Assembly (NCBI RefSeq): GCF_008831285.2 | Contig: NC_045146.1 | Coordinates: 23,825,703-23,889,702, forward strand | Direction: 5' to 3' | Length of the DNA: 64,000 nucleotides | Origin: Nymphaea colorata | Lineage: Eukaryota > Streptophyta > Magnoliopsida > Nymphaeales > Nymphaeaceae | Part shown: positions 19,530 through 63,704 of the stretch, piece after piece | How the letters are laid out: the number at the start of each line of letters is the position of its first letter | Position numbering within the stretch: position 1 is the first letter of the stretch | Program-made: the position numbers and the translations under genes | Notes under the pieces: generated by a model | Database searches by the model: none | Told to the model about the DNA's origin: nothing | Seen by the model: only the letters and a program-made list of their open reading frames with translations

Positions 19530-19844
19530 AGTTAGTACCCCCTGCCCTGGGGCCTATACTTCATAGAGGGGTTGACACCCACAGGAATCGAACTAGCAAC
19601 TGGTTACATGTCAAGCATTAGCCCAACTAGCAGGGCGGAGCCAGAGATTTTATGCTCAATATTAGAGATGACCAAGGGCACCAAATAAAAACAACTAAGT
19701 AACTGAGTGGCACTAATATATAAATTTAGAAAAATAATTTGGACAAAACAGTATGTATATATATAGATTTTATGGCACTGTGTGGGCAAAGGCCCACACG
19801 TGCGCACAATTGGCTCTGCCCTGCCAACTAGTTACACCAAACCC
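19530..19844 (-). mobile_element. tRNA-derived SINE-like unit, interrupted by a MITE
   Basis: Read on the minus strand it begins GGGTTTGGTGTAACTAGTTGG, then CTAGTTGGGCTAATGC (A-box-like), then AGTTCGATTCCTG at about 19584-19594, which matches the pol III B-box GTTCGANTCC. A 193-bp MITE (19631-19823) sits inside the A-box-like part. The 3' end is not sharply visible. It could instead be a decayed tRNA-like repeat of another kind. A related unit lies near 63.5 kb. Confidence 0.55.
19631..19823. mobile_element. hAT-type MITE, 193 bp
   Basis: The ends are CAGGGCGGAGCCAGAG and GGCTCTGCCCTG, forming an imperfect terminal inverted repeat. It is flanked by a perfect 8-bp duplication CCAACTAG at 19623-19630 and 19824-19831. 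An 8-bp duplication with a CAGGG-type end is typical of hAT elements. There is no coding capacity. It lies inside a SINE-like unit. Confidence 0.85.
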
Positions 19845-20262
19845 CTTTGCGCGATCCATATACTTGAGATCTTCATATTTACTCTTTTATACTTGCAAAA
19901 GTACTATTTAAAAATATTAAGGGGTTGGTATGCTCTTAAATTCACAAATTTAAGTTCCTCAAGATTTAAGATCGAAAGGAAATTAGAAGTAAAGCAAACA
20001 GTCAAGAACCCTATATGTCCGATGAATTTTGTTAAAAGATCAGCTTATTGCCAGTTTTATATACTGGATTGAGCACAGCCATCCCCACTTCACAACTCGT
20101 ACAAACATTATTACTGAAAGAGCTTGACATCGATAATTCAAACAACCTTCTGACATTGACGATCTTGATTCTATTTATGACTCAAAATCATACAAAGGAA
20201 ATCGAAGGAATAGAAGGGGCACCACCAACCAAGTGAACACACTTTATTAGCCTAAAACTTCT

Positions 20263-20784
20263 TCACTTTATAAGTGGAGAAGATGCGGCCGTTGCTGCAA
20301 CACCATCTTCAGTTTTTACAAGAGGATCCTGCATACAGATATAAGTCAACAGATTCAAATGCAAGATGTATATAAAAAGCTGAGTGACAAATTGACAATA
20401 ATCTTTCCTAAAATGTGAAAGATTAAAAGCATGCCCACGTGAAACTATCAGACAATTTGAATATCGATTCATAACAAAAGACATGCCTATAGAGAACATG
20501 TACGTTTCTTCTGGTATTAAAAAAAAGGAGCTAACTATATATAAAAGCCTAGCAATTATGGAGCAGAGGTGGCTCCAACAAAATAAATCAATAAATACAT
20601 GAAATTCAGGAGAATCTAAGTTGTTTCTGCTTTCTTTTTTGACAAGAAATAAAAGCTCCAGGTGAGTCCTTACCATCATATGCCATTTGAGGATGACAGG
20701 ATTATAGAATCTGAATACGACTGCAGATTGTGGTGAAGTTAGTTCTGCTGCTGCCAAGGTTTCCAAATTCCAAGGCGCGGCACT

Positions 20785-20785
<1 letters not shown>
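20263..20785 (-). CDS. Possible last two exons of an unidentified gene
   Basis: On the minus strand an acceptor-like TTTTAG near 20785 opens a frame reading AAPWNLETLAAAELTSPQ, and later VVFRFYNPVILKWHMM, to a good donor (ATG|GTAAGG) near 20675. A second acceptor near 20329 opens DPLVKTEDGVAATAASSPLIK with a stop, in a compatible phase. I recognise no family and cannot find the upstream exons; a CT/TA microsatellite lies directly upstream. It may be a real small gene or chance. Confidence 0.25.

Positions 20786-20788
<3 letters not shown>

Positions 20789-20861
<73 letters not shown>
20789..20861. repeat. Compound (CT)n(TA)n microsatellite
   Basis: About 38 bases of CT dinucleotides run directly into a TA run. 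Confidence 0.95.
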
Positions 20862-21544
20862 TGATGATCTATGTACTAGAAAACTTCTATATTCACGAAA
20901 AACTTTCATGACTTAGTTATAAGATTGGACATAGCATCTCTAAATCTAACGTGTTAATAGGACAGTATCCTGAGTGTAGGAAGAGAGGAAGGGACAAGGA
21001 TGACCTACCCTTTAAGAGAATAAAGTCTCTGTCAACTAGCCAATCCGTGCATGCAACTAATTTGATAAAAGCAGACCAACTTAAGAAAAATAAAAAAATG
21101 CTCTTCGTAAAAGCATGACCAAAATTTCTGAAGCAATGGTTTCTATAGGTAATGTAAAACACAAAACGCAATAGACACACGGAGTCTCTGCAATGATGCT
21201 GAACATTCTAGTTCGTCCACAGAATATACACATACATAGACCTTAAGGCAATCTACACACACACATATATCTCAGAATATGAGTAAAACTAGTTCTGTTT
21301 TGAAACTGATTTTCTCAGATTCCTATGCCCCAAGATTCATGACTAGTATTATAATGGAAAGAATAGAGAGCAAAAGGAAAAAAGAAAATGGTGAAGGTGA
21401 GAAACTTAGTCTTAAAATGAAACTGGCTGAATGTATTCCGCACCCCTCCCTGTCTCCGTGTATATACACACACAGACACACAAAAATAGATGCAGGAGAA
21501 GTGGCTCATGATGCAAGAAAGAAAGATGAAGAGAAGAAAGATTA

Positions 21545-21895
21545 TCACCTATTGCAGTCCATATAGGTAGAGAGCGCGAATGGCAACTCGACATGGCATG
21601 TGCTTGGGAGCTCTTTAACAGCAGCTTCCTTGAGGTTGTGGATGCGCCGTGTTGCATGTCGGATGCAGGTACATGCCAGCTCCTTGTCCTCATGAGTTAT
21701 CAGCAAGCTGCGAAGGCGTTGAAGGCCCTCACAGCAATCAGGGGAAGGCGCACTCTCACTTCCAGTCATGTAAGACACGCATTTGTGCAATGTCATGACC
21801 ACTTCACCACAAGTCAGGTCAGCCTGGAAGCTTGGCTGAACAAAGAGCTGAACTGTTAGGAAAATTAGCAGCACCAGTGCTGTTGCTTTCTTCAT
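21545..21895 (-). CDS. LTP: Type I non-specific lipid transfer protein
   Basis: Small secreted lipid-binding protein of the plant nsLTP1 class, 116 aa in one exon. A signal peptide ends at about residue 25 (VQLFVQPSFQA). The mature part carries all eight cysteines: C29, C39, C54-C55, C75-x-C77, C100 and C114. This gives C-x9-C-x14-CC-x19-CxC-x22-C-x13-C, the type I pattern, so the four-disulfide, four-helix fold should be intact. The central DCCEGLQRL and ACTCI are typical. Many LTP1 genes have an intron just before the last codons; an AG|GTGATA here could serve as such a donor and would change only the last residue or two. A TATA box lies 73 bases upstream. Confidence 0.93.
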   Translation of the reverse strand: MKKATALVLLIFLTVQLFVQPSFQADLTCGEVVMTLHKCVSYMTGSESAPSPDCCEGLQRLRSLLITHEDKELACTCIRHATRRIHNLKEAAVKELPSTCHVELPFALSTYMDCNR

Positions 21896-21967
21896 CTTTG
21901 TATCAGACCTTCTTCTTCTTCTGTGAACTTGTGTGTGTGTGTATGTGGAGACTCGATGAAGGTGCTA

Positions 21968-21973
21968 CTTATA
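21968..21973 (-). promoter_or_regulatory. TATA box of the LTP gene
   Basis: On the minus strand the sequence reads CTATAAGTAG, 73 bases before the LTP start codon, a normal spacing for a short plant leader. Confidence 0.6.
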
Positions 21974-22041
21974 GCTGGCAAGGGCACAAGCTACAAAAGT
22001 CATTTTTGTGGTTGTGTATGCCATCATCAATTTGTTACTGA

Positions 22042-24409
22042 AGATTATCCTGTATGAGAAAAAATAAATATCAAATCAACAGACATATTTTCGGTCCTAC
22101 CATGATTTTCCGACATATTAGATGGTCAATTTTTAGTAGTACGGTAGGTCTATGCTTCCAGTTTTCTTTTTCTTATGTTAAGCAGTATGATCCGCATATA
22201 TGAATTTAGCTTCTTTGTCCGTTTACTCAACAATAAACTGGCTGAAGAATGATCAAGCATTTGAACTCATATGAATATACTGGAGAGATGTCCCTGATAA
22301 TTTGAACACACATGCACACACACACACACACGTATGTATATAACCACATTTTTTGCGCAGAGACTGGCAAGGCATATTGGTGCACATACGAAAAAACAGA
22401 CGTTTATTTTATATTGCACTAAATGCTTTTATATATGAAGTTGTGTAAGTATATGAAAATTATGCAAAGAATTCCCAAAAAAAAAAAAAAAAAAAAGACA
22501 AGTGGAGGAAGTTTCTGCCCGCCGGTTTGCACCAAAGTATGGCAGCCACAGACACATCACTCCGATCAGTGGCGAGGCGAGTAGTCCTTTTTATTATATA
22601 AAGCCATTAACAATGTCCACAAATTTGAAAAGTTCATCAGATTGATCATAGCCAGAGAAGCAGTGGGTAGCACAGTAAAGGACAGATCTGAGCAAATGGG
22701 GAAGGAGGGTGACACATCTGCTTACGTCGGCACAGAACTTCCAGGCAACCCTCATGCTTCTCTTTGGCATAACAATTTTGGCAACATCGAAGGTGGACAA
22801 ATCTCACCATCCTTTCCCCAACAAACTCGTTCATCCTTCTCTACTGTGACCTTGGCTCACCAGACTGCCAACTGCTAAAGCATGACGGATCGGATGTATC
22901 CGGCTCTTCCACTTGACTGAGCGCCAATCAAACAACTTGAGTGATACAGATCCGTGGTGCTCTTTATCTTTAGCCCTTCTCGTTTGAAAGTAAGCACAAT
23001 GGTTATTCTGCAGTAGTCCAGGATCATCCAGTTTATTTCACAACTTCTCTAATAAAAATTACACTTGCTGGTAAAAGCTATCAAGTCGGCACTTAAAATA
23101 AACTTCTGTTAACATAAGAAACAAAAAAAGGTTAGCTAGAAGAACGGCAATATAATTTAATAATAAAAGGTAGCGTTGAAAAAAGATTGCAACTGGCGTT
23201 CATTTTTCAGGTTATAGGAATTTCCCTTCAAGTCCTTATTTGAAAATTTTCAAATTGGCCTCTGTTTTGAAAACTGTAGACAAAAGGCAATCCCCAAATA
23301 AAAGATTTTTGCAAAGAGATTATGGGCTTCGACCAATCGCATAGAGATTTTCACATTAAAAGCGGGAAAAAGAGAAACGCTTGTAAAATATTAGAATTTC
23401 ATATCAAGTTGGCATTTCGAAAGGAAGAGGTTTCATCCCCCAGGAAGGCAATTCTCTAGGAGTACATCCAATGGTCCATATCCAGAAATTTCACAAGTAG
23501 TTCATATTCGACGTTGCTTTTTCCTGTTTCAAATGCCAGTAGGGGATGATGCTCCCACTAGTCATGGATAATGCATCATTTCAGCTGGGCGTACAGCAGT
23601 GAACCGCGTGAGAAAAAGAATCACCCCAGAGTTCGGCCACCGGAAAACAAGTCCATTCAACCAAGAAAGATCCATGCAGGCGTCAAAACATATATCACAA
23701 TGCATAAAAAGTTGATGATCATGTGTTTCATCACATTCATATGCAAACATTTACTGGTAAATGTCATAATATTAGAAGCATGTTTGAACTTTCTTGGAGT
23801 TCCAAACAGTTGCTTTTAGCTGTAAAAGTAAAACTGATAAAGTGTTTCATTATCTCCGAACAGTCTTATTCAATAACAGAGGGAGGAGTCTAATCTTAAA
23901 TTAAACCAGATCAAGGATAATCAAATGGCCATGAAGAGAAATAAGCAAATGCAAAACAATCCATGATACCACAAGTAATTACCAGAGCTCAAGTTACAGG
24001 CAGCAGCAGGAGAACAATTTAGTAACTTGGAAAATAGGGTGATTGGTTGCATAATAACAGCAGAGGGAACAGCACAGACCATGTAATTCTTATGGCTACG
24101 TGAAGCACCCCTTGACATTCCAGAGAATTCAAGGCAAACCAGTTTATACATACGCAGCGAATTCCTCAAACCACAGCCTCCAGATGATGGAGGCAAGAAA
24201 GGTCTTCACAAGGAGGTTTTGGTATCATCAATTACATCTCAAATTACAAACTAAGGATAGTAGGCAAAGGAAGAACCCGTCCAAGCAAATCAGGACTTCC
24301 GAATTCTCACCATTGTCCCAGTGTGTCCCAGAGTTAACCCTGCACAGGCTCTCACCCTCTACAGATAGCAATCGAGTCACGATTTCTCTTCAACCGAAAA
24401 AATTATTCT
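22042..24409. other. Intergenic, no firm gene
   Basis: Contains a short CA repeat near 22310, a poly-A tract near 22480-22496 and only short open frames. A minus-strand frame at 22594-22800 is not convincing. The right end is likely the 3' UTR of the acidic-protein gene. Confidence 0.45.
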
Positions 24410-28217: not shown

Positions 28218-28246
28218 ATGTATTTTATCGTTTTCTCTTTCCCTAA

Positions 28247-30500
28247 ACAACGAAAGGGGTTGGAGAGTTCTCAACTTTGTTATGGTTGAAACACCTCATA
28301 CAGGAGAAAAACTTGCATCAGTCATCAAAGATTGTTTATTAAAATGGAACATTGATCGCAAGTTATTTTCAATTACATTAGATAATTATTCGACAAATGA
28401 TATCATGGTTACAAAATTGATAGAATGACTTCTTGAAAAGGATGCACTTGTTTGTAATGGAAAATTTTTTCAGGTTAAATGTGCTGCTCATATTTTTAAT
28501 TTGGTTGTACAAGATGATGTCAAATAAAAAAGTGATGTGATTGACAAAATTAGAGAAAGCATAAAATATATTAAGGTATCTCCAGCTTGATGTTAAATTT
28601 TTGATCGAGCAGTGCGTCATGTCAAAGTTACTTGTGAGAAAAAGTTGTGTCTTGATGTTCCAGCTAGATGGAACTCAACATTTCTTATGCATGATATAGC
28701 TTTACAATATAAAGAAGCTTTTGGTCGTTTTGAAGAACTTCATTTCAGACCGACCAAGGATGAGTAGAAGAAGACTACTATTATTCATAACAGTTTAAAA
28801 GTATTTTATGATGCTACTAATGTCATTTTTGCAGTCAAATGTCCAACTTCCAATATCTTCTTTAAAGAGTTTTGTGAGATAAAATTGGAAATTGAAAAAA
28901 TGTGTTCAAGTTCACATATTTGTCTTTCAAATATAGCAATGAGGATGAAAACAAAGTTTGACAAGTATTGAGATATATGCAATTTAATTTTAACAGTTGC
29001 AATGGTATTTGATCCTCATTATAAGATGAAAATAATTGAGTTTTATTATAGGTAATTTTATAAAGATGAAGCATATGAACTTGTCTCTGCAATTAAGAAT
29101 TATTTTAGTGATCGTTATGATGAATATAAAGCTACTTATGCATTGAAAACGCTCTCTGTTGGTAAGCCTGGGCACCGGGCCGGGCCGCCGCCGGGTACCT
29201 GGTACCCAGCCCACCACGGGCCCAGGCCCGGGCCTTGACAAAAAGGTTTTTGGGCCAAATTCATCGGGCTCGGCCCGGCCCGGGCCTGCCACTGTGATCG
29301 GTGCCGGCCCGGGCCTGCCACTGTGATCGGTGCCGGCCCGATAAGCCCAACATGGGTTTTTTTTTTCTTTAAAAAAAATGAACTTAGAGAATTAGGAACT
29401 TAGGGTTATGGGTTAGGTTTTCTTTTCCTCTTTTCGTTTCATTAAGAAATTTCATCGCCGCGAGCTCGAGACTGCCTCCTCCAGTCCTCCAGTCTTCCTC
29501 ATCGGTCGTCGCCCCTTGGCTGCCTCCTCCGGTCCTCCCGTTGGTCGCCGCCATCGCACAGCTGCTCTACTTGCTTCATCGTCGGTTGCATCGAGTGCTT
29601 CTCCTCCAGAGGACTACTTTCTACTGGTTGGTGTTGTTCTTGTTTTTGTTATTTTATTAAGTGCACATGGTTTACGTTCGTGCTCATTTTTTGAGTGAGC
29701 TAGAGGCTAGCAAGTAGCAACCCGCCTCAAAGCCCATCCCAGCCCGCCCGGCCCGTTAATAATCGGGCCGGGCCGGGCCTCGGGCATAAACCGAAGCCCG
29801 AGGCCCGATATTACATGGGCCCGGCCCGGCCCGTTTAGAAACGGGTCGGGCCTCGGGCCAGCCCGTTTTGAATGCCGGGCTTTGATTTTTTCATTTTTAA
29901 CGAGTCGGGTCGGGCCGGCCCGGCCCGATGCCTAGCCTAATCTGTTGGTAGAGGTTACATTGTTGATGTTCAGAATGATAATGATGCATCTAGTTTTACT
30001 TTTGATTGAAGTTTCTTTTAATAAGAAACCTAAAACAAGTGCACTAGATGACTTTCTTGAAGAATCATCACAAAGCCAACGCACAAAATCAAATTTAGAG
30101 ATATATTTGGAAGAGTCCATTTACCCAAAAAATAATCCAATTGACATTTTGATTTGGTGGAAAGTCAATGCACCTAAATACTCTTTGTTATCTAGAATGG
30201 TATGTGATATTTTGGCTATTCCTATATCAACTGTTGCATCAAATTCAACATTTAGTACATGTGGACGTATTCTTGATTTATACAGAAGTAAATTAGGTTG
30301 CAAGACCGTGGAGACTTTGATTTATGCACAAGATTGGTTGCGAGATAAGGCTGAAGGTAATTTACTTATTATTAATGTTTTTAAACATATTTTTGTGTTG
30401 CTTATTTTATTTTTTTGTTAGATGATTCCGATTTGCCTACACTTTTACTTGAAGAGGAAGCACCATTTGCATCTGCATACATTGAAACTGGATCATAAAT
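28247..30500 (+). pseudogene. hAT transposase remnant (RICESLEEPER/Ac-like)
   Basis: The left part has VETPHTGEKLASVIKDCLLK followed by WNIDRKLFSITLDN, a stretch typical of plant zinc-finger BED/RICESLEEPER hAT transposases. The right part has the C-terminal dimerisation region: IDILIWWKVNAPKYSLLSRM, then DILAIPISTVASNSTFST, then KTVETLIYAQDWL. In-frame stops lie between the pieces (for example about 28426 and near 28767), the N-terminal BED finger is not visible, and a 778-bp element interrupts the gene at 29163-29940. It is not functional as it stands. Confidence 0.85.
29163..29940. mobile_element. Nested non-autonomous hAT-type element, 778 bp
   Basis: It is flanked by a perfect 8-bp duplication TCTGTTGG at 29155-29162 and 29941-29948. 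The left end TAAGCCTGGGCACCGGGCC and the right end, read in reverse, TTAGGCTAGGCATCGGGCC form an imperfect inverted repeat. Both ends are strongly GC-rich with GGGCCGGGCC arrays, unlike the AT-rich host. The middle holds a leader-like segment and an unidentified 60-codon frame. There is no transposase, so it was moved in trans. Confidence 0.85.
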
Positions 30501-31755: not shown

Positions 31756-34700
31756 CTAGCTATTTTCAGCAAATCTGCCCAAGTCCTGCAGTTGAATAAA
31801 AATGAACATATCATGTAAATAATTAAGGCACAAGATTGCAATAATCTACAGGAAGCTACTTCAGGAAGAGAGCAAGAAGTTTCAGTAAGACCACCAATCC
31901 AGGTACAACGATTGGCTTGTATTTAGACCAAAACAAAGAACTGACAGCCAATCAACAGAAAACAAATACTGACCAGCTCGGTAAAATCAAGAATTCTCCT
32001 TAAACTTTCAACATCGTCCACCTTTTGGACAACTTCCTGCCACCATGCACTGTCCCTTTTGATACTGTCAGTGTTTGGAATGGATGAAAATGGCTTTTCA
32101 TCTGTTTCACTGAGTTGTAAATTGAAATTGTTATTTGCTGTTTCTTCCTTTATATTGCCTTGAATCGTGTTGAAACTATTGAGGCTACGGGGGATCACAT
32201 CATAAGGTAGTGGGTGCATAGGAGAACGATAACCTGATGAAAATCCAATTTCAAGTCAAGCAGGGATAAGCAAGAAACAGCACAACCACATGATATCACA
32301 AATTATCTAGAAAGGTGAGCTGCTTCAAGTTTCTCACCCCGGCACTCAGGATCATGGCACTTCTGGTAGTAGCAAGACCTTCTGAAATCCACAACATACA
32401 TCACTGTGACGAACACAGAAGGCAAGTCACACAAAATATTTACCTAACATACTGATATCCTAATGATCTCGATGGTGAAATTGAAAATTTTCCACTAGCT
32501 CTTCAATAGCACATGAATTCCACAAAATGGTGTCCAAAAAAGTTAAGGCACAACTAGAACATAAAGCCATTTCAAATTGCATGGACAAGCATGTGAAGAC
32601 AGCTAAAGAGCTTAATATCTTACCCATGTGTTATGGGCAATCTTCTACAATTCAGCAAGCACTGTGTACAAGAGTGGGACCAGGCCAAACCCAAAAAGTA
32701 GGCGAGCCATCACGCTCTGAGGTCTTGATTTATAGTTCAAGAGCTCATTGTCTTAGGCACCGTCCACAGGCAGGCAAGAGTGGAACCAAGCCAAACCAAA
32801 ACCATGGGTGACCATCATGCTCTGAGAATCAATTTATAGTTCAGGAGTTCATTGTGGGGACCATCCACAAGAGTGGCACCAAGCCGAAACCAAAGCATAG
32901 GTGACCATCCTGCTCTGAGATCTCGATTTATAGTTCAAGCATTGTCTGAGACTCATGCTGGAAGAAAACAAAATATGCTTGAACGTTACAGAAATGGAGG
33001 ACTGGTTCAACTTTTATCTGCCAATGACGATGTAAGTCCAGACAGCTTGCAGTATGAATCAAAATTTCTGGCTTATCCTGAGAGGAGAAAGGTGCTTTTA
33101 TTTAATGCTTCACCATATACCAAACTTAATCAGGTTCAAACAACAATTATCAATTTTTGTCCTGTCCAGGCAGGTGCCAAAATTTTATCATATTGATAGT
33201 GCAAGTAACCAGGGATCTGTGCTTTTATAGACAGGGGCGGAGGGAGGGGAGGGCCCGCCTAGGCCATGGCCCCACCCTAATGAATTGAAAGAAAAAAAAA
33301 ATACATTGTAAAAGATAAAACCTCTGTTTGGCCCGCCCCTGAAAAAAATCCTGGCTCCGCCCCCTGTTTATAGAACCATGTGTAGAGTATAGAAATGTGG
33401 AAAGTTTACTACCTGCCCAACCTAGAATGCTAGAACAGGTCAATCCCTAAGCTTACAAGCATGTTTAAGACTAGCAGTGGATTTGGATTGGTGGTTCAGT
33501 AGTCATGACGTTGAGTTCATTTCCCCCACAAGGAGAACTAAAATTGGTTGCATCCAGTCAAACCAACATTAGCAGGCAGGTCTCAGAAATTGGACAAACT
33601 GGTGTGAAATACACAAAAACCTACGGTCTCAAAATATTAATTAAAAAACTGACAAATTCAACTGCCATAGGAGAATAGAAGCAACAAATTAATATGCATA
33701 CACCGACAGACAAAATCATACTCCAGTAGAAATACAAAAGATTCATGCAAAATTCATATGCATGAGCTTAATAATTTAGAAAGTTCCACATCCTATAAAA
33801 ATGACCGAAAGTGCAAAAATCTGTGTAAACTAAGCAACAAATTCCATTATTGTCTACAATTATATCCATAGACAGAACATGCTCATCAACATCTCTTTAG
33901 AGGAACAGACGAACATAAATCTTGCTCAAACCCCGCCATTTTCCTTTCAAAGATCCTAGCCGCCAGTAAATAAACACAATAAGTTTAAATTACAACAAAT
34001 TCTAGGCATTTGATGTGGTCAGGTAAAACATACAGTCAGGGCAACAAGCTAAGTAACATAATGCACCAGGAAAACCATGTACTCAGACAACAGACACTTC
34101 ACTTGGAGTAAATAACAGAGGCAATAATTCCACACCAGATGGTACTATAGTTAGCATAAACATCTTCAAACAGAATGAAAACTGAGTAGAAGCAGAAGCA
34201 GTATGTCCCAAGAAGTACCATGGTTACTTTTATGCTGTCTACCTATTCTTTCACAGAATCTATTTCCAGCAATGTTGTAAACCATCAAATCATAATCTGA
34301 AAACCAATACCAGCTCCGTATCCATCCTGTCAGATGAATATTAGACTGAAAACAGGGAACTTCTACAATTCAGTCAACATAAATAAGAAAAAGCAATAGC
34401 AATACAATGAAATCTTTGCACTGGATACATCCATAGACACTCCATTATATGTTGACAATATCAGAAAATGTACAAAAAAATTCACTTCAAACCATTGTAT
34501 GGAAAACCAATATATTAAGGCACAATAATCATGTTTTCTAGGTCCAAAAAGAAAACGTATACCACAAGAATTTCGAAATCACCAACATTGTCTCACAGGG
34601 TCAAGTTTCATTTACACCTTAAAAACTGAAAACCAGGAACCAGCATTATATCATAGAATCTGCAAAATATGTTTGCCATATATCTTCAAAAGTAACAGAG

Positions 34701-40700: not shown

Positions 40701-42689
40701 CATATGCACACCATTATGCTCTCTATTCACTTGTGTATTAAACTCCAAATCAAAGTACAGGTGGCAAGGCAAACCCTGGAGAATGAAAGAATGTATAAAA
40801 TTACTAAAATATGCTGTCTCAGGAAAGAAATGAAAAAACTTGGAACCAACCAAACTCATCACTGAGACACATTTAATAGCAAATTTATTGTAGGGCAACT
40901 AAGATGATTCAAATTGGATTAACAGAGAAGCACCAACAGTTTTTTCACTGAGAGAGAGAGAAGTTTACTACTACTTTCCAAGCCTTTTCCACAATATAAT
41001 TAAAGTACGTGTCTGCTTTGCCTGAAAATGATTGCAATTGAATATGAAAAAACCTGATTACACTGACAGAATGTGAAATTGTGAGTGCATGAAAACTATC
41101 ATTTTTATAATCCCTTTTCATTCCATGGGATATCATTAATACTAAAGAAAAAGAAACAGAGAAAAATTATGCAAGGCCATTGATTGAGATGTTGCCACTG
41201 TACAAAGATAAGAGAAGTAATTGAGCTCCACACATTGGTTCCATTCCAGATACATTAGATCCATTGCCACTTCAGTTCTACCATGATCAACACATCGACC
41301 ACATGTGTTTGTTAACCAAAGCTAATCATCAAAGCATAACACAATTCCCCTTTCCATGGACTTGACAGGGCAGTATCTCTAAACAACTAAAGGAGCATGG
41401 AGTAGTCATGGATGGCGCTATCCATGCTTAGCATGCATTCAACCCTCTCTATCAAGGGAGCTGTGGTGATCCGGTTTCAGATTGACACACTCAGAAGTTG
41501 GACACAGGCCATACAAGACACTGAAAGGACTAAAAGGGACTAGCCAGTCTGGCTCAGTCCAAAGTTGGTTGAATGTTGATAAATAAATAAATACATATAT
41601 TTTTATGGAAAATATAAAAAAACACATATATCTATAGAAAGAACGTCCATACAAGTTTACAGGTCAGGGTTTAGTGGACAAACCAATGACTAGGCTGTCT
41701 AATTTACTAGTCTGGCCAACTGGTCACTGGTTTGAAACACCACTTGGTTGATAACCAGCTCAACTAGCTAATCGGCTGATTAGTTAGGATTTTGCCAACT
41801 AAGGTACTACTTGGGATTTTGACAACCAAGGTATAAGTAAATATTGAACCACATAGTTGCAAAAAAAAAAAAGAAAAAAGAAATGGGACATATAAAAGAA
41901 GCACAATTAAGCATCATACAAGGGATTTACAGTTTACATCATTAAAATTACCATGATTGACAGTTTACATCATTAAAATTACCATGATTGACAGTTTACA
42001 TCATTAAAATTACCATTTAAAGAGAAGAACCAGATACACTTACCCCTTGAATTACTTCATAATGATGACGAAATTTTGAATCCATGCTCGAGTATCTGCA
42101 CCATCAGGAAGCAAAAAGAAACTATTCAGCAAAAATCAAAAGCCCAAATATGATATTCGCCCATTGCAAGTAAAATCAGAAAAAAGTCGCAAAGAATAAT
42201 AACGACCTTTGCCAAAACTCCTCATAGGATGACACAAGAAACCTCCTTTGTCCACTTAAATGATCCTGATAACTAAAAACAGAAACATCTTCATGGCTAT
42301 CAGCAAATTTGATTGCATCATCTTGTCTTGGAAAAGTAAGCCAAACACCCCTCCTACAAAATAAGAGTTACTTATAAGCTGTATAAGTCAACAAAGGAAC
42401 CATATGTAAGAGAGCAAATTGTGAAAAGTGAAAACCTCTGATGTTCCAAATAGGTGAACATATTAATGCATGCCCCAATAAGGTCAACAACTGTCCAACA
42501 CAGTGTGAATGTGAAGTACCTTATGATCAGCTCAGTCCTTTTGCTAAGATCACCAGTATCATTCAATAATCTCAACAATTGATGTGGATTTTTAGCAGGT
42601 GCACCAAGTGGTGATCCATAGAATACGCCTGGAGAAATTTGCTTGAAACCCCTATTCAATTTCCTTGACATGCTTGCTGATGAAAAACC
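31756..42689 (-). CDS. PRIMPOL: PrimPol, DNA-directed primase/polymerase
   Basis: Archaeo-eukaryotic primase (AEP) that in this family re-primes stalled forks and bypasses lesions in nucleus and organelles. Twelve minus-strand exons join in phase: 42520-42689, 42207-42353, 42044-42095, 40601-40775, 38822-38904, 37817-38029, 36092-36160, 35739-35895, 34219-34326, 32338-32403, 31974-32233 and 31756-31785, giving 509 aa plus an unresolved N-terminus. AEP motif I is CHLYFDLEFN (DxE metal ligands), motif II EKFSRHLI (SxH), and motif III QLFLDKSVYSRNRCFRL. The UL52-type zinc-finger region is FCERIGRQHKSNH plus YYQKCHDPEC. SYQDHLSGQRRFLVSSYEEFW and HHYEVIQ match the plant family. No catalytic residue is missing. 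Long introns carry a solo LTR, a MITE and tandem repeats. If translation began at MSRKLN in the first listed exon, the length would be 503 aa. Confidence 0.93.
32672..32950. repeat. Three diverged tandem copies of a roughly 100-bp unit
   Basis: Units starting near 32672, 32777 and 32870 share GAGTGGNACCANGCC, ACCATCNTGCTCTGAG and TTTATAGTTCA. They lie in the PrimPol intron between the exons at 34219 and 32403, just before an exon-like fragment on the opposite strand. Confidence 0.8.
32945..33135 (+). pseudogene. Exon-like coding fragment of unknown origin, antisense in a PrimPol intron
   Basis: An open stretch on the plus strand reads ETHAGRKQNMLERYRNGG, then LVQLLSANDDVSPDSLQYE, then SKFLAYPERRKVLLFNASPY, ending at a possible donor CAG|GTTCAA near 33135. 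Composition and residue use look like a real protein, not chance. I do not recognise the family. An open frame at 32527-32660 on the same strand (KTAKELNILPMCYGQSS) could be an adjoining piece separated by the tandem repeat. Confidence 0.4.
33232..33366. mobile_element. hAT-type MITE, 135 bp
   Basis: The left end CAGGGGCGGAGGGAGG and right end GGCTCCGCCCCCTG form an inverted repeat. The perfect 8-bp duplication TTTATAGA lies at 33224-33231 and 33367-33374. It sits in a PrimPol intron and its ends resemble those of the MITEs at 19.6 and 63.3 kb. Confidence 0.9.
33470..33560 (+). mobile_element. Possible tRNA-like SINE fragment
   Basis: GGTGGTTCAGTAGTCATGACG resembles an A-box and GAGTTCATTTCCC a degraded B-box with near-normal spacing. 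No ends or target duplication can be drawn. Confidence 0.3.
36092..36160 (-). CDS. PRIMPOL: PrimPol exon 7 (small exon)
   Basis: A 69-base exon chosen because it is in phase on both sides, has AG and GT borders, and encodes MESLICRMDVNCKELLTF, which fits the spacer after the FRLPFSSK segment. It is less conserved than its neighbours, so it is the exon most in need of transcript support. Confidence 0.65.
37476..37575. repeat. Two tandem 50-bp copies in a PrimPol intron
   Basis: CACTATGTATGCATAGCAT and ATAGATACAAATCTGAAAG occur in both halves with few differences. The period is exactly 50 bases. Confidence 0.9.
38196..38230. repeat. (GAGC)n/(GA)n microsatellite
   Basis: Purine-rich tandem run in a PrimPol intron, between the exons at 38822 and 38029. 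Confidence 0.85.
38582..38678. repeat. Two tandem copies of about 49 bp in a PrimPol intron
   Basis: AAAAAATGATCTGTT and AGTTTGATATA with an ACC(G/A)AAC end recur at a 48-49 base spacing. Confidence 0.8.
39470..40010 (+). mobile_element. Solo LTR of an LTR retrotransposon
   Basis: A 541-bp unit with ends TGTTAGGTG and GATGTAACA, that is the TG...CA form with a short inverted TGTTA/TAACA. It is flanked by a 6-bp duplication GGCATG (39464-39469 and 40011-40016); five bases is more usual. A promoter-like GTATATAAGG lies at about 39630. No internal region or partner LTR is present, so it is a fossil left by LTR-LTR recombination, inside a PrimPol intron. The nearly perfect flanks suggest it is not very old. 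Copia or Gypsy origin cannot be told from the LTR alone. Confidence 0.75.
41929..42016. repeat. 31-bp perfect tandem repeat, 2.8 copies
   Basis: The unit begins ACAGTTTACATCATTAAAAT and repeats at 41929, 41960 and 41991 without a mismatch. It lies in a PrimPol intron, starting about 28 bases past the donor of the exon at 42044-42095. Confidence 0.95.
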
Positions 42690-50467: not shown

Positions 50468-53400
50468 ATGGGCTGCGCTACCCAGGCAGGTGCAATCGTG
50501 TTGTTAGGCCAGGCAATTTCCGTCCTTCTGGTGTTTCAGGTGGTTCACTTCTTCATAAAGAGGATCGGGCAACCTCGAGTTATCTCAGAGATTTTGGTAA
50601 GAATCAATTTATTGTTCTGCATATGTGCATATTTTACCATGGGGACAGGTATTTATCTCGAACAAATATTCATGCTTTACTAATGCATTTGTCTTTATGC
50701 AAAAGAACATGGAATTGGGTAGGCATTCAATTGATTCTAACCCGAATTATGAAGAAAATGTGGTAAAAAAATTGTCAGATGTATCGAAGTCCTTGAATTG
50801 TCTCAATTCCGGTTCTTTATGGTTTGAGCATTTTCATTATGTTGCCATCAGAAAGCATGGTAACAAGTCTACTTGGGTATCCCTCTTTCTGATGGGCTTT
50901 TTGGTGGCCTGCACTTAAGGGTTTCTGAATAAAGAAAATGTTGCATCTAGATGCGTCGATTAGGGTTTATCTTTTTGGTTCCCCTGGAACCTTACATGAC
51001 TGTTGTGCATGGCATTGTTTAAAACTTGAATTCTTGTTGGGTTGTTCAAATAAGATGGTAAAAAATTTGATAGGCTTTTATGATCATTCAGTTGCTACCT
51101 TATTTGTGTTTAAGGTCATTTTTTTGTGAAAGCTGGCATGTGATTACATCTGTATGGTTAGATAAGAAACCAATTTGAAGAGTTAATTATGTACATCAAG
51201 AAGCCCTACCGACATATGAGGTGGCCAACTTCAGCATTGGCACTTGAATTTAGTTCCCTCTAAAGCAGAACATGATTAAATTTTAATTTATAGATACCCA
51301 CTTAGAGTCTAGATGTATCGTTATCAACAAGGATTATTAAATTATCTAATCTATGATGAATATATAAAACCCACTGTCATCATTTCAACAACCTTGAAAT
51401 TCTTGTGCACAGAACATAGAACACGCATCCATTCTTGTAAAATTGGACATAAGGATGCAAACAAAATTAGTGTTAGATTTAAAGAAAAAAAGTTGTACAT
51501 TTATAAAATTTCATCAGTTGGCATATCATCCAAATTAAACGTCGGTTTTGTTCTGTTTAGTTGTATACGTGCCCAACTTTTATGCAAGTCTATTGAACTT
51601 GTTACGGTATGTGTTGCGTTCTATCATTTGAAAAGGAATTGTACTTTTGGGACACCACCTTATGCTCTTTCCACAAAGTTACAAGCCTTCAGAAGTGCGA
51701 AGGTGGACGACCACTTAAGCTTCTGAAATATTTGCTTCCGAATCAATGCACCGGCAACTAAACATTCATGGTCTGTGGATGGTGCAGACGGGTATGCTGG
51801 TTGGGACGGTGCTAAGCAGGATTGGGCCTCTGGGTGGTGAATTCGAGGGTGCCTCACGGGAGGTTCTGGGCGGCGTCGCCAAGATAGGGCGCACCTTGTA
51901 CATGTTTATGATTGGGTTGGAGCTGGAACCGGCGTTCCTGTTGCAGAGCAGCAAAAGGGCGTCGCTAATCATGGTCAGCACCCTCTGCGTCTCCACGGTT
52001 ATCAGCCTCGCCTTCACGCCGTTGGTGATGGACACATTGCAAACGAAGATGGGCTACTCTCGCTTCGTCTTCCTCTTTACTGTCATCATCGCCGGCACCA
52101 GCGCCCCCACGGCCGTCAGGGCTGCAGCTGAGCTGAAGCTCGCCACGACAGACATTGGCCGCCTGGCCATCACCACTTCCATCCTCAGCGACATGGTCGT
52201 GCTCTTACTCGTCGGCATCAACCCCGGGCCGTCATTAGTCGTGTTTTCGGATATCGTACACGACACTTGCTTGCTCGCCATCAGCCTGATTTCTACACTG
52301 TACGTCTGTCGTCCGGTGCTCACGTGGTTGAACAGGCGGAACCACGGTAGGGAAATAAACAACTTCCAGTTTGGCGTCCTCATCGTGGGGCTTCTGTGCC
52401 TGACGATGGGTGGGAGCGAGGGATCAAGCGAAGAAATCTTCTTTGCCTTATTTATGGGGCTGGCATTCCCGAAGACCGGCAAGCTGGGGAGGTCGGTGGT
52501 GAGGCGGATGCGGTCACCGGTGCACGAGCTCCTGCTGCCGCTGCTCTTTGCTTACGGGTCGATGCAGGCGGACGTGAGGAATATGCGTGGGAGGGACGTG
52601 GGGCTGGTGTTCGCCACCGTCGTGCTGTCACTGGTGGGGAAGATATTGGGAACCACCTGTGTCTGCAGGCTGCTCGGCATTCCATGGGCACAGACCACCG
52701 TTATGGGACTCCTGCTCAACGTCAAAGGTCAGGTGGATCTCATCATTCTCAGCCGAACCGTCAGCAACGACGTAAGTGATTTTCTTTCTCTCTCTAATTA
52801 TTCTAGTGGCAGAGCCAGCCAAAAATTTCTGGTTGACGGGCACTCCTATTTCAAATTTTAAATTTTTTAAAAGGGGATTAATATGTTAATGAGAAAATAA
52901 TTAGCGGGTATATTAAACATGATGTGTAGGTTTGCGTGGGCAATTGCCCACACATGCCTACTCCACTGCTCTAATATATTAAGTTGATCAGCTGCTACTT
53001 TTGATTCCTTTGAAAAGCAAATATGAAATGTAACAAGTTCAAAATGCAATACGTTGTTCTGCTTAAACTATAACCAGTGCTAACTCAATGGTTAGGCCTG
53101 ATCTACAGAAAGCAGAGCAGGAGGTACTCCTAGTGGCGATAATCAGCGCCATTATCAACACAGTGATCACACCCCCTATGGTGATGGCAATTGTGAAGTT
53201 CGAGCGGCAGAGCATCACCGGATACAAGGCGGTGGGTCTCCAGCTGCTGCCGCCAGAGTCCGAGCTGCGCATGCTCACGGCCGCCCACATGACCGCCTCC
53301 CTCCCTTCCCTCCTTAGCCTCGTGGAGGGCATTCGCGGCCCCTTCGCCTCCCCCACCTCCGTGTACTTCATGCAGCTCATCGAGCTCACCGACTCTAATG

Positions 53401-54407
53401 CTTCTACGCTCCTGCAAGCCGAGCGCGAGAAGCCCTCCTCCCTCAGAGGTAGGCCCGTCAGTTTGGATCCCGCAGATTCATCAGTCAATGCCGCCGCCGC
53501 TGCTGCCATTGCCGACGACGAAGAAGATGAGAACTCAGGCACGACCTTGGCCTCAGAGACGAGGCAGATCGGGATAGCGCTAAACAGCTTCAAGCAGGCA
53601 ACGGGCATCTCCATCCGCCATGTCAAGGCCATCTCCGGCTTCTCTAACATGCACGAAGACATCTGCAACGGTGCCGAAGACCTCCGCGCTTCCCTCATCA
53701 TCATACCGTTCCACAAGCAGCAGATGGTCGACGGTGGAATGGAGACCGTCAACGAAGGCCACCGCTCGGTGAACGAGAAGGTGCTTCGCCACGCCCGGTG
53801 CACCGTCGGTATACTAATAGACCGCGGTCTGGGGCTGGCAGCCCAGGCTCCGGTGGCGCCTGGGCTGCTCTACCAAGTGGGAGTCCTCTTCTTCGGCGGG
53901 CCCGACGACCGTGAGGCCCTGGCCTATGCAGCTCGGATGCTGGACCACCCAGGCGTGAACCTGACGGTGGTGAGATTTCTACCCAGCAATGACGAAGACT
54001 ACGGGAAGGCCCTCGAGATGCAGGCAGCGATCGAGAACAAGGTGCTGACGAAAATCAGAGAGCATGAGAGAGAGAGAGCGGACGACAATAACTACGTTGC
54101 GAAATTTTACACGCGCTACGTCGCAGCCGGCTCGGTCACTTACCTGGAAAAATATGTCGCCAACTGCGTGGAGACGGCGAACGCGATGGACGAGCTGCAG
54201 GGTACGTACCACCTCCTGGTGGTTGGGAAGGGGAGCAGCGAGGGGACGCCTCTGACGGCGGGGATGGCAGATTGGGTTGAATGCCCCGAGCTAGGCCACA
54301 TTGGCGACCTGCTGGCGTCGACGGACTTCGGCTACCCAGGCTCGGTGTTGGTAGTCCAGCAGTGTAGGAACAACGAGAACGCGGAAGAGGAAGACGATTT
54401 TGCTTAG
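50468..54407 (+). CDS. CHX: CHX-family cation/H+ antiporter
   Basis: Monovalent cation:proton antiporter 2 family; plant CHX proteins move K+ or Na+ against H+ at endomembranes or the plasma membrane. Exons 50468-50596, 51788-52771 and 53109-54407 join in phase to 803 aa. The membrane part includes IGQPRVISEI (family signature), GTVLSRIGPLG, MFMIGLELEPAFLL and TTSILSDMVVLLLVG, which keeps the conserved Asp of the transport core. The cytosolic tail has the usual IIPFHKQQMVDGG and VGVLFFGGPDDREALAYAARM. The exon 3 border at 53109 is chosen because earlier AGs put a stop in frame. The first usable ATG gives only about 30 residues before the signature, shorter than the usual 60-70, so an upstream exon may exist. 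Intron 2 holds a MITE. Confidence 0.92.
52803..52969. mobile_element. hAT-type MITE in CHX intron 2
   Basis: TAGTGGCAGAGCCAGCC at the left and CCTACTCCACTG at the right make a degraded inverted repeat of the GGCGGAGCC type seen in the other MITEs here. CTCTAAT occurs on both sides but a clean 8-bp duplication is not visible, so the ends are approximate. Confidence 0.6.
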
Positions 54408-58599: not shown

Positions 58600-59000
58600 C
58601 AACAACTAATTGAGAAATTGGATCAGATTCGGGTTTAAGAATTGACATGTGATCAGATTCTAACTCTAATTTATTGTTAAATAAATATCTGATCAGATTT
58701 CGGATTTTAATTTTGGATTAGTTTCAAATAGTTGTTTGCATGTCCAATATCTATACATGTTGAGAGTCAGTTCTCAACATAGCATGTTGCGGTTAAGATT
58801 AGGTTGTGTATGTTAAAAGTTAAATTCTGATTGAGATATGAATCTAAAACTCCGATTCAGATATGATTTGAATTGTGAATTTAAACATCAGATTCAGATA
58901 TAGCATGGACTTTTCTTCATTTATACTGAAATCCAAATTTGAATTCTGAACATGTGAACATCTGATAAATCGAACATAGTAAAGGGTACATTTTAAAATC
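58600..59000. repeat. GATTCAGATAT-type repeat cluster
   Basis: Diverged copies of GATCAGATT and GATTCAGATAT recur, very like the subterminal arrays of the hAT element at 25.7-31.4 kb. It is probably a remnant or short derivative of the same family. No ends are visible. Confidence 0.4.
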
Positions 59001-59954
59001 ATAACATGATAACTCAAAAGTGCCGGTCACCCTGGACACCCAATTGGGGACTTGATTTCAGCTTATCTCTAGATAGATGAATCAAGCTCTCCCCTACAAA
59101 TTAAACTGCCAGTTGAGCTATATGATGCTTGGATTCATTATTATCTTTTTTTAAGAGTTTGAAACAAACTCAGACATGGATTTAGCGGGGAAGGGGCGGA
59201 GAGACACTCAGATGGGGTCTTGATTTGGATGTGATTTGGAATGCTGATTGAAATGCAAATTTAGAAGAGTCTGATTTAACAAGTGGGTACCTGATCATAA
59301 TTTCCTTGAGGTATTTTAAGTTTTTATATTCAAGAAAGATTTGTTCATAATTTCAGGTGAACAAGGGGTGAACAAAAGATTAACAATCCACCACTAGGAA
59401 AGAAGCAGGAAGGCCTCTCCATTCTCTTCCTCTTCGTCTTTGAGGTTTTGAATTGCATGTGAACCAGTATGGTACACCAATGCGATCCTCCCAAGTATGA
59501 AAAATAGCAACCCATAATTGCGGAGGGACTTGATCAAGGGAAATTTCTTGAACGGAGCCAATTAAGCCAACGAAATTCCGACTGCATGCGACCGGTAGAG
59601 ACTAATGACTTCAATCCACAGGGCAAATGAAGTGAAAGTAGAAAAGGAAAAGGATTTATTAGAACTGGTCACCTTTTCATGTGATACCAAATACAATACA
59701 GAAAGATTACATCCCAAAGAGGAGAAAAAATTTTGGTTTCACAACCATCCAGTGCTCTAATCCAGCTCTCAATGTTAAAAAACAAACGGGAAGAAGAAAT
59801 CGAATATATTAAGAGGGAAGATCAGGTGGCTCCATTGGTGGCGCTGCTAAAATATTGAAACACCATTAGAGTCCACAAGTTTTCACTGTCTCGCCGCTGG
59901 CAAGAGACCAGCCTCGCTATATAGTGCGCACTTTGAACATTTGATCCTTTCTGC

Positions 59955-60311
59955 TTAAAGACAAACGCCGGGAGAAGAACATGTTAGAGAAACCAGCGCC
60001 TGCTCGACCTGCTGCGAAGGGTTCCTGTTGAGCAGAGAAACTATATAGTCCATCAGCTCCCCTTCACAAGGAAGCCTAAGGGGGCCATGCCCATCCAGCC
60101 CAAATTCTTCTTCTGCCATACCCAACAGCTCTTTGAAAATTGGGTGATTCAAGTACGTCAATGGAACCACATACCTCTTGCCATCAACTGCATAGACTGC
60201 AAAATGGCCCTTACTGTACCTACCCAACGTACTCTCATCTTCTATCTCCACCTTTCTACTCTTCTTGGCCAGCCACTGCCATTTTCTGGCGATTTCAAAG
60301 AGAAGGACCAT
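59955..60311 (-). CDS. SAUR: SAUR-family auxin-responsive protein
   Basis: Small auxin-up RNA protein, 118 aa, intronless as is usual. Family members promote acid growth by inhibiting PP2C-D phosphatases at the plasma membrane. The start MVLLFEIARKWQWLAKKSRK is the basic amphipathic N-terminus of the subgroup with an IARKWQ motif. The SAUR core reads KGHFAVYAVDGKRYVVPLTY, LNHPIFKELLGMAEEEFG and GPLRLPCEGELMDYIVSLL. The frame is open 23 codons further upstream, but the TATA box at 60401-60406 would place transcription start around or downstream of that upstream ATG, so 60311 is preferred. Confidence 0.95.
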   Translation of the reverse strand: MVLLFEIARKWQWLAKKSRKVEIEDESTLGRYSKGHFAVYAVDGKRYVVPLTYLNHPIFKELLGMAEEEFGLDGHGPLRLPCEGELMDYIVSLLNRNPSQQVEQALVSLTCSSPGVCL

Positions 60312-60400
60312 CTTGGAGCTAAGAACTGGCAGAAGAGGGAATAAGGGGAAGCTGAAATTTAACATTACTGGGAAGGACAAGAATAGTGTGGGAGGAGTGA

Positions 60401-60406
60401 TTTATA
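60401..60406 (-). promoter_or_regulatory. TATA box of the SAUR gene
   Basis: Minus strand GCTATAAATCACTCC, 90 bases before the chosen start codon. TATAAAT is a near-consensus plant TATA box, and it helps decide the start. Confidence 0.75.
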
Positions 60407-60599
60407 GCAGTGCAGATGGGCTGGCTTGCAGAAAAGAGAAAGGGTGGAGGCGGTGGTGTGACATGTGAGTCTGAAAGATGGTGAAGGGTGGATTTTGTAT
60501 AGAATGATGATTGGGTGCAATGTAAAGTTGTGCAGTGAAACTTTGAGAGCGCTTTTTCTAAAGTTTCTTTTTTCAAAAATCTTAGTCTTACACGTGCAT

Positions 60600-62181
60600 G
60601 AAGCCGCAGTACGTCAGATCCTGCAAATCTAGCAGTCTTAGATCCTTTTACTAGGGTATCTGGATAAGATTTTATAGGTCATTCAATCTTGGGAGCTTTT
60701 AGTTGTTAAATTTTTTGTTCCCATAAAAATCCTACTTGCAGATTCAACTAAACCCATCCAAGGTTAAACATCTGGTTCATGAACTATGAAGAACGCATCC
60801 ATAACGTTGAATTTGGAAAAGAAGCTAAGAATTAAGTTGACTTTTGAAGTGCAACTGCATAATCTCATTGCAGTTTCATTGAACGGAATCTATTGTGACT
60901 TAATTGCTATGTAGAGTTGATGGGGGCTTGAGAAAAGAAAGTGTGCGTGTGTGAGAGAACAAGGCTAACAGTCTCTCATCTCATCCATCAGTTGGGGAGG
61001 GGCTTTCATGTGATGCTCTTAAATGGGCTCCTGCTTTTCTTTAAATTGATGGGCTGCATCAATTTGTGTGGCCGCTTTTCTGAAAAAGCAAATTTTTTGG
61101 CTTTGATTGTACAGTAGGATATGGTTTCTCGCTTCTTCTCTACGGATTCGTTTTTATTTTCTTTTGTTTTGTCTTATTCATGTTGTGATCTTGCATCCAT
61201 ACTCTTTGAATGCTTTGAGGTTTGTTTAATAGAAGTTCCTTTTCGCTAAGCTCGTTTAATCGAAGTTCTCCTCTCTGCCGTCATCTTTTTTATGGGTAGA
61301 GATTTGTGGTGTGGGACAAACCTGAAGAACAAAAAAGATCTGGTGGCTTAAGAATATGTTACTCTGCCTAAGAATTACAGATATCAGAAAAAAAAAAAAT
61401 CTCTTATTTTAAAGTAGTGGGTTTTTATCCAAGACTCTAATTCAATTTGTGCAATGGCCTTGCGACACAAATACAATTTCATAGCTTCTCTTTTCTCTCG
61501 AATAGATGAAGAGTTTTTCATTTGATGAGATCTTAGATATCTACTTTCATTAAATGCAGTTCGAAAACAATTTTCACAAAACATTTTTCTCCATTGGCAT
61601 GAGATGGCACAAAGTGTTTCTCTCTACAAGGTCAGCTTGCTTCAACCTCCTGGTGTTGACTCCCTCATAATCTCCTTTGGGCTGGGGGTCCTACTCACTG
61701 ATCCAAAACTATTGCATGACTTATTCTGTTGGGCCGCATTCAAACTCAAAATAGCGTTAAAGGGTCTGACTTTCACCTTATGAGCAGGTGTCTTCTATGT
61801 TGTTGTGTCGAATAAACTACCAGTCACTTATTGTGGTTGTGTCTAGTGTCTCAAGATCTTTATGCACTTACTTAGTCTACGTCTCGCATTGAAGTTATAA
61901 ACATATTTACAGTTTGGGACCTGAACCATGAACCAGCTAAAGTGAAAAACAACAGGAAATGACGTATCATTTGGAGAATTTAGTTGTTTACGTTTTGATG
62001 GGCCATTTGGAACTTCAGAAATGATATTATTTATAGGAATAAGTTGTCTCCGTTCAGCGCATGACATCCTTTATTTTGTATGATGTTTGATTAATTTATC
62101 ATAACTTATGGGAGAATGGTAGTATCTTCATCTCTTGTCCAGGTTCAACGTTTCTTTGGACTTGTGTTAATGTTATTCTCT

Positions 62182-62214
<33 letters not shown>

Positions 62215-63320
62215 ATTAACATGTTATTACTAATAAAATAACTGTATAACATGTCACTACTAATCACATAAATGTAGAAACGAACTAATAACGAACCGGA
62301 TTAAAAGAACAATTGTGTGCTTGGCTCCTTTTTCTTTGGTACTGTTTTGCCGTTCCAAATCCTACTTAATTTTGATCCCCTGTTAAAGTTACTAATTCAT
62401 TATATGTTAATGACCATGGATCTCAGTTAACACCCATTATAAGCAAGTTGATTGCGAATGATATGTTCATAGGTTTGTATTCACCAGCATACTCCAAGCT
62501 AATTTTGTCAAACTTTTACTCTAAGTCACGTGTTGTATGAATACTGTGAAGTGGATACAGATACACCGATTTTAGAAAATTTGGGTACGAGGTGTGGCAA
62601 TGTAAACATATACTTATACATATAACAATCCACAAGAATATCAAAATTAAAGATAAATGAAAGAAAAATATAGAATCTTGATGGAAAGAGAAATAAAAAA
62701 GAAAATCAAAATCAAAATTAAAAAGATTAAGTCTAAAATTATAAATGTTTTAAGTTTTAAGATACAGATGTACTTACCTGTGTCTGCGTATTTGAGTCGT
62801 CATACTCGCAGATCAGACTACAAAGTTACAAACATCTTCCCTGTTTCTCCTCAACAGTGCGTTTCCTCTAAAGCTTATCAGTCAATGCTAAGAAAGTGCA
62901 CTATTCTCAAGAAAAAACAATACGAACATCACTTTTTCTTTTGTAACTCTTAGTCAGATAGAAACAAACTTTCTTGCTTTTTCAATTTCATATGTCGCAT
63001 TCTTGTTCATAGTTAGTACATTGCCATTTACTGATATTTGGGGAAAGCGATATCTGTGGGTTAAAGGAAGATGGTTTGCTCTTACAAAAGCGAAGGCCTT
63101 ACCTCCATCCTTTTGGTTTTAACATGGTACCCCACGCACGTGGAGATCCTTACAAGGTGAGGATACTCACTAAAGTGCAAACGGTTGTTGCAACTAAATC
63201 TACTTTATCTCATAACTTCATGGATTTCCCCGCTCTCACTATACTAGTACACACAGATTTCACTTTTTATACTAAGCAATAAAAAGTAACCGAAAAAAGA
63301 ACTGTTTTTTTAGTCTTAAA
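60600..63320. other. Intergenic, no gene recognised
   Basis: Only short frames of biased composition are present. A compound (CT)n(CA)n microsatellite lies at about 62178-62212. From 62.58 kb to 62.76 kb the sequence is nearly all A/T/G with AAAATCAAAAT-type runs. Confidence 0.5.
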
Positions 63321-63704
63321 GGGTTCGGCCTAGCTGATAGGGGCGGAGCCAAGGTAGGGTCCTGCATGGGCTTTGGCCTTACCTCAAAAAATTTTTTTAC
63401 AATAATTTACATGTAAATTTCAAAAAATTTCACTTGTTTTATATAAAAGTTTTGAAAAATGAATATTTTGGCTCTAGTTAAAATTTAGAAACTTTAATTC
63501 GGCCCCCCTCATAAAAAATTTCTACCTCTACCCTTGTAGATAGCTGGTTGGGTTAGCAGTTAGTATAAAACCAGTCGCTGATTCAACCCTTCATGCGAGC
63601 CTAATCAAACACAAGTCCTAGGAGCAAAGTACTACCCTCAGGATTGTATAATGAGTGGCAAGCAATAAAGTCTCTCAACCTGACTTGTAGTTATCAGAAA
63701 AAAA
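63321..63704 (+). mobile_element. tRNA-derived SINE-like unit, interrupted by a MITE
   Basis: The left piece is GGGTTCGGCCTAGCTGAT; after the MITE it resumes TAGCTGGTTGGGTTAGCAG (A-box-like) and GCTGATTCAACCC (B-box-like, about 63577-63589), ending near an A-run at about 63698-63704. TAACTAGTTGGGCTAA in the unit at 19.5 kb aligns with TAGCTGGTTGGGTTAG here, so the two are probably one family. Confidence 0.55.
63339..63540. mobile_element. hAT-type MITE, about 200 bp
   Basis: The left end AGGGGCGGAGCCAAGG and right end CTACCTCTACCCTTG are a partly degraded inverted repeat of the GGGGCGGAGCC family. The likely 8-bp duplication is TAGCTGAT (63331-63338) and TAGCTGGT (63541-63548), with one mismatch. 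The last few bases on the right are ambiguous. The interior is AT-rich and non-coding. Confidence 0.7.

Follow-up and report, generated by a model that had tools for sequence, protein, structure and literature searches.

Two hAT-type miniature inverted-repeat transposable elements (MITEs), here called m1 and m2, lie in units resembling short interspersed nuclear elements (SINEs) in a stretch of Nymphaea colorata DNA (contig NC_045146.1 of assembly GCF_008831285.2, forward-strand positions 23,825,703 to 23,889,702). This stretch of 64,000 nucleotides, numbered from its first letter, is the window referred to throughout. The two host units carry related tRNA-type heads with the A and B boxes of an RNA polymerase III (pol III) promoter, and both MITEs appear to have entered the A box at its 3' edge. 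The pair most likely reflects ordinary nested insertions together with a suggestive coincidence of position. Three further hAT-like elements (m3, m4 and m5) lie elsewhere in the window.

Two MITEs and their host units

The first element, m1 (19631..19823, 193 bp, minus strand with its orientation set to match m2), is a clean insertion. It has ends CAGGGCGGAGCC / CAGGGCAGAGCC (inverted) and is abutted precisely by both copies of an exact 8/8 target-site duplication, CCAACTAG on the plus strand (19623..19630 and 19824..19831) or CTAGTTGG in SINE orientation. The inverted ends match at 11 of 12 positions and have a hAT-like C/TAGGG start. When all 64 kb were scanned for an exact 8-bp duplication combined with inverted ends of 10 bases, two mismatches or fewer and a hAT-like start, m1 was the single match, against an average of 0.1 in 20 Markov sequences; the scan is incomplete, having missed m3, whose two ends are one base out of register.

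The unit that hosts m1 runs on the minus strand (19348..19852) and measures about 304 bp once m1 and one duplication copy are subtracted. Its best A-box register, TGGTGTAACTAG (19828..19839, minus strand), has one mismatch to the consensus TRGYNNARNNGG, and its B box, AGTTCGATTCC (19584..19594, minus strand), has one mismatch to GGTTCRANNCC. The unit is bounded by a candidate retroposon duplication, GATCCATTTACTT / GATCCATATACTT (19335-19347 / 19853-19865), identical at 12 of 13 positions; of 1500 random stretches, 22 contained a 13-bp flanking repeat with one mismatch, 13 being a length picked once the repeat had been found. No poly(A), poly(T) or A/T tail was seen at the candidate 3' end, an end defined solely by the candidate repeat. 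On the basis of the flanking repeat we regard the case for a SINE at site 1 as moderate.

The second element, m2 (63338..63536, plus strand, about 199 bp), starts with TAGGGGCGGAGCC, which agrees with CAGGGGCGGAGCC at 12 of 13 positions, and finishes in ...CTCTACCCTTG, a degenerate 3' end followed by TAGA. Its putative target-site duplication consists of TAGCTGAT on the left (63331..63338, plus strand) and TAGCTGGT on the right (63541..63548, plus strand), which agree at 7 of 8 positions. This duplication is degraded: besides the one mismatch, the left copy and the canonical m2 end share a base, the last of the former and the first of the latter, and the four bases TAGA stand between position 63536 and the right copy. 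At the same slack 353 of 20000 random pairs were as good (1.8%), and in a looser 24 x 24 search 10.8% of 20000 pairs. Thus, where the preliminary description of this DNA had 8-bp duplications at both MITEs, the one at site 1 is exact and the one at site 2 is imperfect and offset from the canonical ends.

To the left of m2 lies the A-box sequence CGGCCTAGCTGA (63326..63337, plus strand), which in the joined empty site reads CGGCCTAGCTGG with one mismatch to consensus. A second register, TAGCTGGTTGGG (63541..63552, plus strand, two mismatches), lies undisturbed downstream of m2, at a distance of 39 bases from the B box GATTCAACCCT (63580..63590, plus strand, two mismatches). The A-box strings quoted in the preliminary description are both present, that of site 1 once m1 is removed and that of site 2 as the sequence stands. 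With no adjacent flanking repeat found, the site-2 unit is a weak SINE candidate.

Related heads and neighboring insertion positions

With the inserts removed, the two heads are identical in 39 of 60 columns (65%), and 1000 shuffles yielded no score as high, in either local or global alignment; in a separate comparison of the 75-base head cores none of 5000 shuffles was as good. In either joined site 44 bases separate the A box from the B box. A comparable box pair (A with at most one mismatch, B with at most three, 40-48 bases apart) occurred in 26 of 2000 random 120-base stretches of the window. The 150-base tails of the two units match no better than shuffles do (z 0.0 local, 1.2 global), nor do their 80-base upstream flanks (z -0.3 and -0.8), and because the heads match while tails and flanks do not, these look like two different units with a common tRNA-type head of about 60 bp. 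Comparison of the whole joined regions (280 and 290 bases) was not striking, with 78 of 2000 shuffles as good, the signal being confined to the head. That MITEs interrupt two SINE-like units, as originally proposed, is borne out as regards the related heads, the units themselves being candidate SINEs.

Within the window we found no second unit with the same tail as either one, and the two have only the head in common. Two other places were considered and set aside. A possible third SINE head near m3 (about 33.5 kb, minus strand) scores 34 against the site-1 head, a score reached by 53 of 200 random windows, and at 41.7 kb a tRNA-like stretch gives 30 against the site-2 head, a value that 136 of 200 random windows reach and that is background. 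No SINE was seen in 22 pattern-matched viral-contig stretches (at most 186 bases around each), where the site-1 head scores 28-37 including the 16-base seed, and three further viral-contig patterns and one genome-contig pattern gave no matches; these are non-plant collections with no bearing on copy number.

On the head alignment the duplications occupy columns 15-22 at site 1 and 12-19 at site 2. They are three columns apart, exactly as had been described. They overlap the last four bases of the best A-box register at site 1 and the last seven at site 2, and since only these final bases are covered, both insertions fall at the 3' edge of that register; the A-box position first reported for them holds with that refinement. 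How unusual such closeness is depends on the target considered. For two insertions that both fall in a single head of 53-61 bp, a separation of no more than three positions has p 0.11-0.13, and for two in a SINE of 300 bp it has p 0.023.

Separate insertions or a shared lineage

All five hAT-like elements were compared pairwise, ten pairs in both orientations giving 20 comparisons. The best match of m1 is m5 (local score 49, z 7.0) and the best match of m2 is m3 (local score 46, z 7.5), and both partners lie outside the heads; next closest to m1 is m2 when ranked on score (40, z 4.7) and m3 when ranked on z (z 5.6, score 31). When 45 bases are cut from each end, the interiors of m1 and m2 resemble each other no more than shuffled sequences do (z 0.65 global, 1.6 local), so that their kinship resides in the ends. 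These comparisons point to two subfamilies, m1 with m5 and m2 with m3, and to two separate insertions, although the margins are modest. It also follows from the positions of m5 and m3 that both groups enter DNA other than heads. The preliminary description had argued for separate events from the difference between the duplications; the registers, the shuffle-level tails, flanks and interiors, and the closest relatives outside the heads all agree with it.

We consider it reasonably probable that two hAT MITE subfamilies, mobilized in trans, inserted separately into diverged SINE-type copies with a common tRNA-derived head. Some hAT transposase would have acted on two non-autonomous elements of different subfamilies, each of which would have entered one of the two diverged copies and produced an 8-bp duplication at the A-box 3' edge, three alignment columns from the other. 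The nearly equal positions would then be mainly coincidence, perhaps aided by accessible DNA. hAT elements tend to enter accessible DNA.

Several observations weigh against this account. The site-2 duplication is imperfect, and its status as the target-site duplication of m2 is something we infer; no adjacent flanking retroposon repeat was found at site 2. A blind scan would not have singled out the head match, since 18 of 200 random 64-kb windows scored 37 or more against the site-1 head, which is what the two 75-base heads score against each other; the match counts despite this background because the MITE had fixed the position beforehand. Over their full length m1 and m2 are related (global z 5.2, none of 1000 shuffles as good): their alignment, with a gapped length of 221, has 171 aligned columns, 122 of them identical. 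They are also similar in length (193 and 199) and point the same way relative to the head. Lastly, two of five elements in heads would be rare under uniform insertion into 64 kb, so that pure coincidence appears strained, a point reasoned rather than calculated, and its oddity is tempered by the feature having been chosen after the fact.

The first two of these observations would suit a MITE that lies at site 2 next to a chance or very old tRNA-like stretch, with no SINE involved. ARAGORN found no true tRNA genes in the window, nor in the joined sites at default settings, and Rfam gave no matches at the gathering threshold in the window with the inserts in place. Relaxed ARAGORN settings without introns returned a score-35 unclassified hit over the site-1 head and a score-37 hit on the opposite strand at site 2; with introns the joined sites returned 153 and 35, and 35 and 79 (79 being on the head strand of site 2); none of these was given weight. 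We hold the absence of a SINE at site 2 to be very unlikely, given a head homology that no shuffle equaled, the same 44-base spacing at both joined sites and the low frequency of such box pairs in random stretches.

What speaks most for a single composite lineage, in which an ancestral SINE already carrying a MITE was copied and sites 1 and 2 are its diverged descendants, is the end-to-end similarity of m1 and m2. The shared orientation and similar lengths would fit such a history too, as would the site-2 left flank CTAGCTGA, which resembles the site-1 duplication CTAGTTGG at 6 of 8 positions by eye. A composite would require, however, that the right junction gained 7 bases and the left one lost 3 (also judged by eye). 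It would also have to account for tails, upstream flanks and MITE interiors that show no more than shuffle-level similarity when the heads remain 65% identical, and each MITE is closer to a copy outside any SINE. Largely because of the shuffle-level tails, flanks and interiors and the best matches outside heads, we judge a shared composite origin highly improbable and retain that of separate, trans-mobilized insertions.

Of the remaining elements, m3 (33232..33366, plus strand, 135 bp) is flanked by an exact duplication, TTTATAGA (33224-33231 / 33367-33374), and no tRNA-type head was detected around it. The relative of m1, m5 (52804..52968, minus strand, 165 bp), has the duplication CTCTAATT / CTCTAATA (7/8, with four extra bases on the left) and lies inside a presumed intron, read by eye, of a CHX-type antiporter gene. 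That gene is split over frames 51719-52861 and 53067-54407 by the apparent intron (region 52772-53100). A weak and possibly older hAT-like candidate, m4 (1954..2357, plus strand), has a CAGAGGTGGAACCAG end and the duplication ACATGTGC / ATATGTGC (7/8, three extra bases); it shows no clear similarity to m1, m2 or m5 and a weak one to m3 (8 of 500 shuffles as good). Modeled empty sites of m3, m4 and m5 were compared with both heads (12 comparisons) and no head was found. The best of these 12 tests, the m5 flank against the site-1 head (score 24, 9 of 500 shuffles), was rejected, as it fails correction for 12 tests, lacks the left half of the head and has a presumed splice donor about 30 bases upstream.

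Extra bases stand between the canonical end and the duplication in m2 (four, 63536-63541), m5 (four, 52800-52803) and m4 (three), and could be imprecise ends, repair or wrong end calls. A hAT transposase remnant (dimerization domain in frame 29936-30421, region 29700-30421) adjoins GCCCGGCCCG inverted repeats (29746-29851). Six of the ten reading frames scanned match Pfam families, namely a CHX-type cation/H+ antiporter (two frames), an auxin-responsive protein, an expansin, a lipid-transfer protein and the hAT dimerization domain. A tandem repeat of three near-identical 31-bp copies, the first of which is GATTTACAGTTTACATCATTAAAATTACCAT, occupies 41924-42016.

Possible promoter effects, the proposed A-box preference and known systems

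Each MITE had been said to disable the SINE promoter that it entered. At the filled site 1 the intact A box has been moved 201 bp further from the B box, and no A box with at most two mismatches to TRGYNNARNNGG is left 30-60 bases from the B box of the head, so that pol III promotion may have weakened. When a second A-box pattern, TRGCNNAGTTGG, is used instead, the filled site (CCTGCTAGTTGG) and the empty site (GTAACTAGTTGG) score alike, with five mismatches over A plus B in each; the box beside the B box is equally good when filled because the duplication restores 8 of its 12 bases. The filled site 2 retains TAGCTGGTTGGG at a usable distance from its B box. Yeast TFIIIC reportedly binds boxes at varied distances, and a changed distance alone may have minor effects, according to part of a review (PMC4090602). 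Loss of the pol III promoter is therefore possible and unproven at both sites, where a weaker A-box register stays near the B box. What the original claim of disablement retains is the loss, by the best site-1 register, of its B-box partner; the outcome for transcription is uncertain.

A more far-reaching proposal was that a hAT MITE prefers pol III A boxes. In general form, a hAT group would favor such boxes through a motif of the type TARCTRGTTGG or through DNA kept open by TFIIIC, and SINE heads would be recurrent targets. In its favor, MITEs of apparently different subfamilies lie in related heads three columns apart, and another DNA transposon superfamily, Dada, targets tRNA nucleotides 8-13 in the A box, according to excerpts of two papers (PMC3706591, PMC8869645). 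A-box targeting by DNA transposons thus exists, though in another superfamily and with a fixed site. Against it, there are two cases only, their registers differ where that of Dada is fixed, and their closeness within a head has the p of 0.11-0.13 given above; no common motif was seen among the duplications CTAGTTGG, TAGCTGGT and TTTATAGA. Insertions outside SINE copies had been expected to speak against a preference, and three of the five recognized hAT-like elements do sit elsewhere in the window, m3 with an exact duplication, m5 with one of 7/8, and m4, likewise 7/8, as a weak candidate. Such a preference is not established by these data, and we think it unlikely. A hAT counterpart of Dada in plants, a lineage in which the transposase repeatedly directs MITEs of different subfamilies to the 3' edge of SINE-head A boxes, seems to us quite unlikely.

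Were such a lineage real, SINEs would offer dispersed safe harbors and MITEs would erode the reservoir of SINE promoters; DNA transposons would have a direct route to the silencing of SINEs. It would also be, to our knowledge, the first case of Dada-type pol III targeting among hAT elements. Among the titles and abstract starts of the literature matches listed, there is no report that hAT elements or MITEs prefer the A boxes of SINEs, and string searches listed, by title, nothing on plant or hAT transposons, one match concerning human Alu elements. As it stands, the locus provides a nested-insertion pair, and the preference is a hypothesis beside it.

Several known systems help to place these insertions. 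The Petunia element dTph1 is a plant non-autonomous hAT with CAGGGGCGGAGCC-type ends. Elements of that type are described as short and non-coding, with an 8-bp duplication and the terminal motif, and the window MITEs resemble them in these general traits; interiors differ even among m1, m2 and m3. The host units share with tRNA-derived plant SINEs the A and B boxes, 44 bases apart, and at site 1 a candidate 13-bp flanking repeat; no A/T tail was seen at the candidate 3' end of the site-1 unit. The box-A motif of SINE-Finder, printed as [GA][CGA]TGG in the part of the source consulted (PMC8825457), fits GCTGG in the joined site 2, and ACTAG at site 1 is off by one base.

Dada offers a parallel in target, its DNA transposon duplications also falling within a pol III A box, in its case that of tRNA genes. 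In the excerpts cited, its duplications are of 6-7 bp, many of them at those A-box nucleotides, and its targets are true tRNA, snRNA and 5S genes (PMC3706591, PMC8869645), whereas here the targets are SINE-type heads, the duplications are of 8 bp in two registers, and related elements of the same group sit outside heads. The window MITEs accordingly do not display the Dada pattern of a fixed position in multicopy RNA genes with a 6-7-bp duplication. Ty1/Ty3 and the Dictyostelium TRE are likewise mobile elements drawn to pol III units but, as stated in part of one source, they are retrotransposons that enter upstream or downstream of a tRNA gene, outside the promoter boxes (PMC5911963), in contrast to the two MITEs described here, whose duplications overlap the A box itself.

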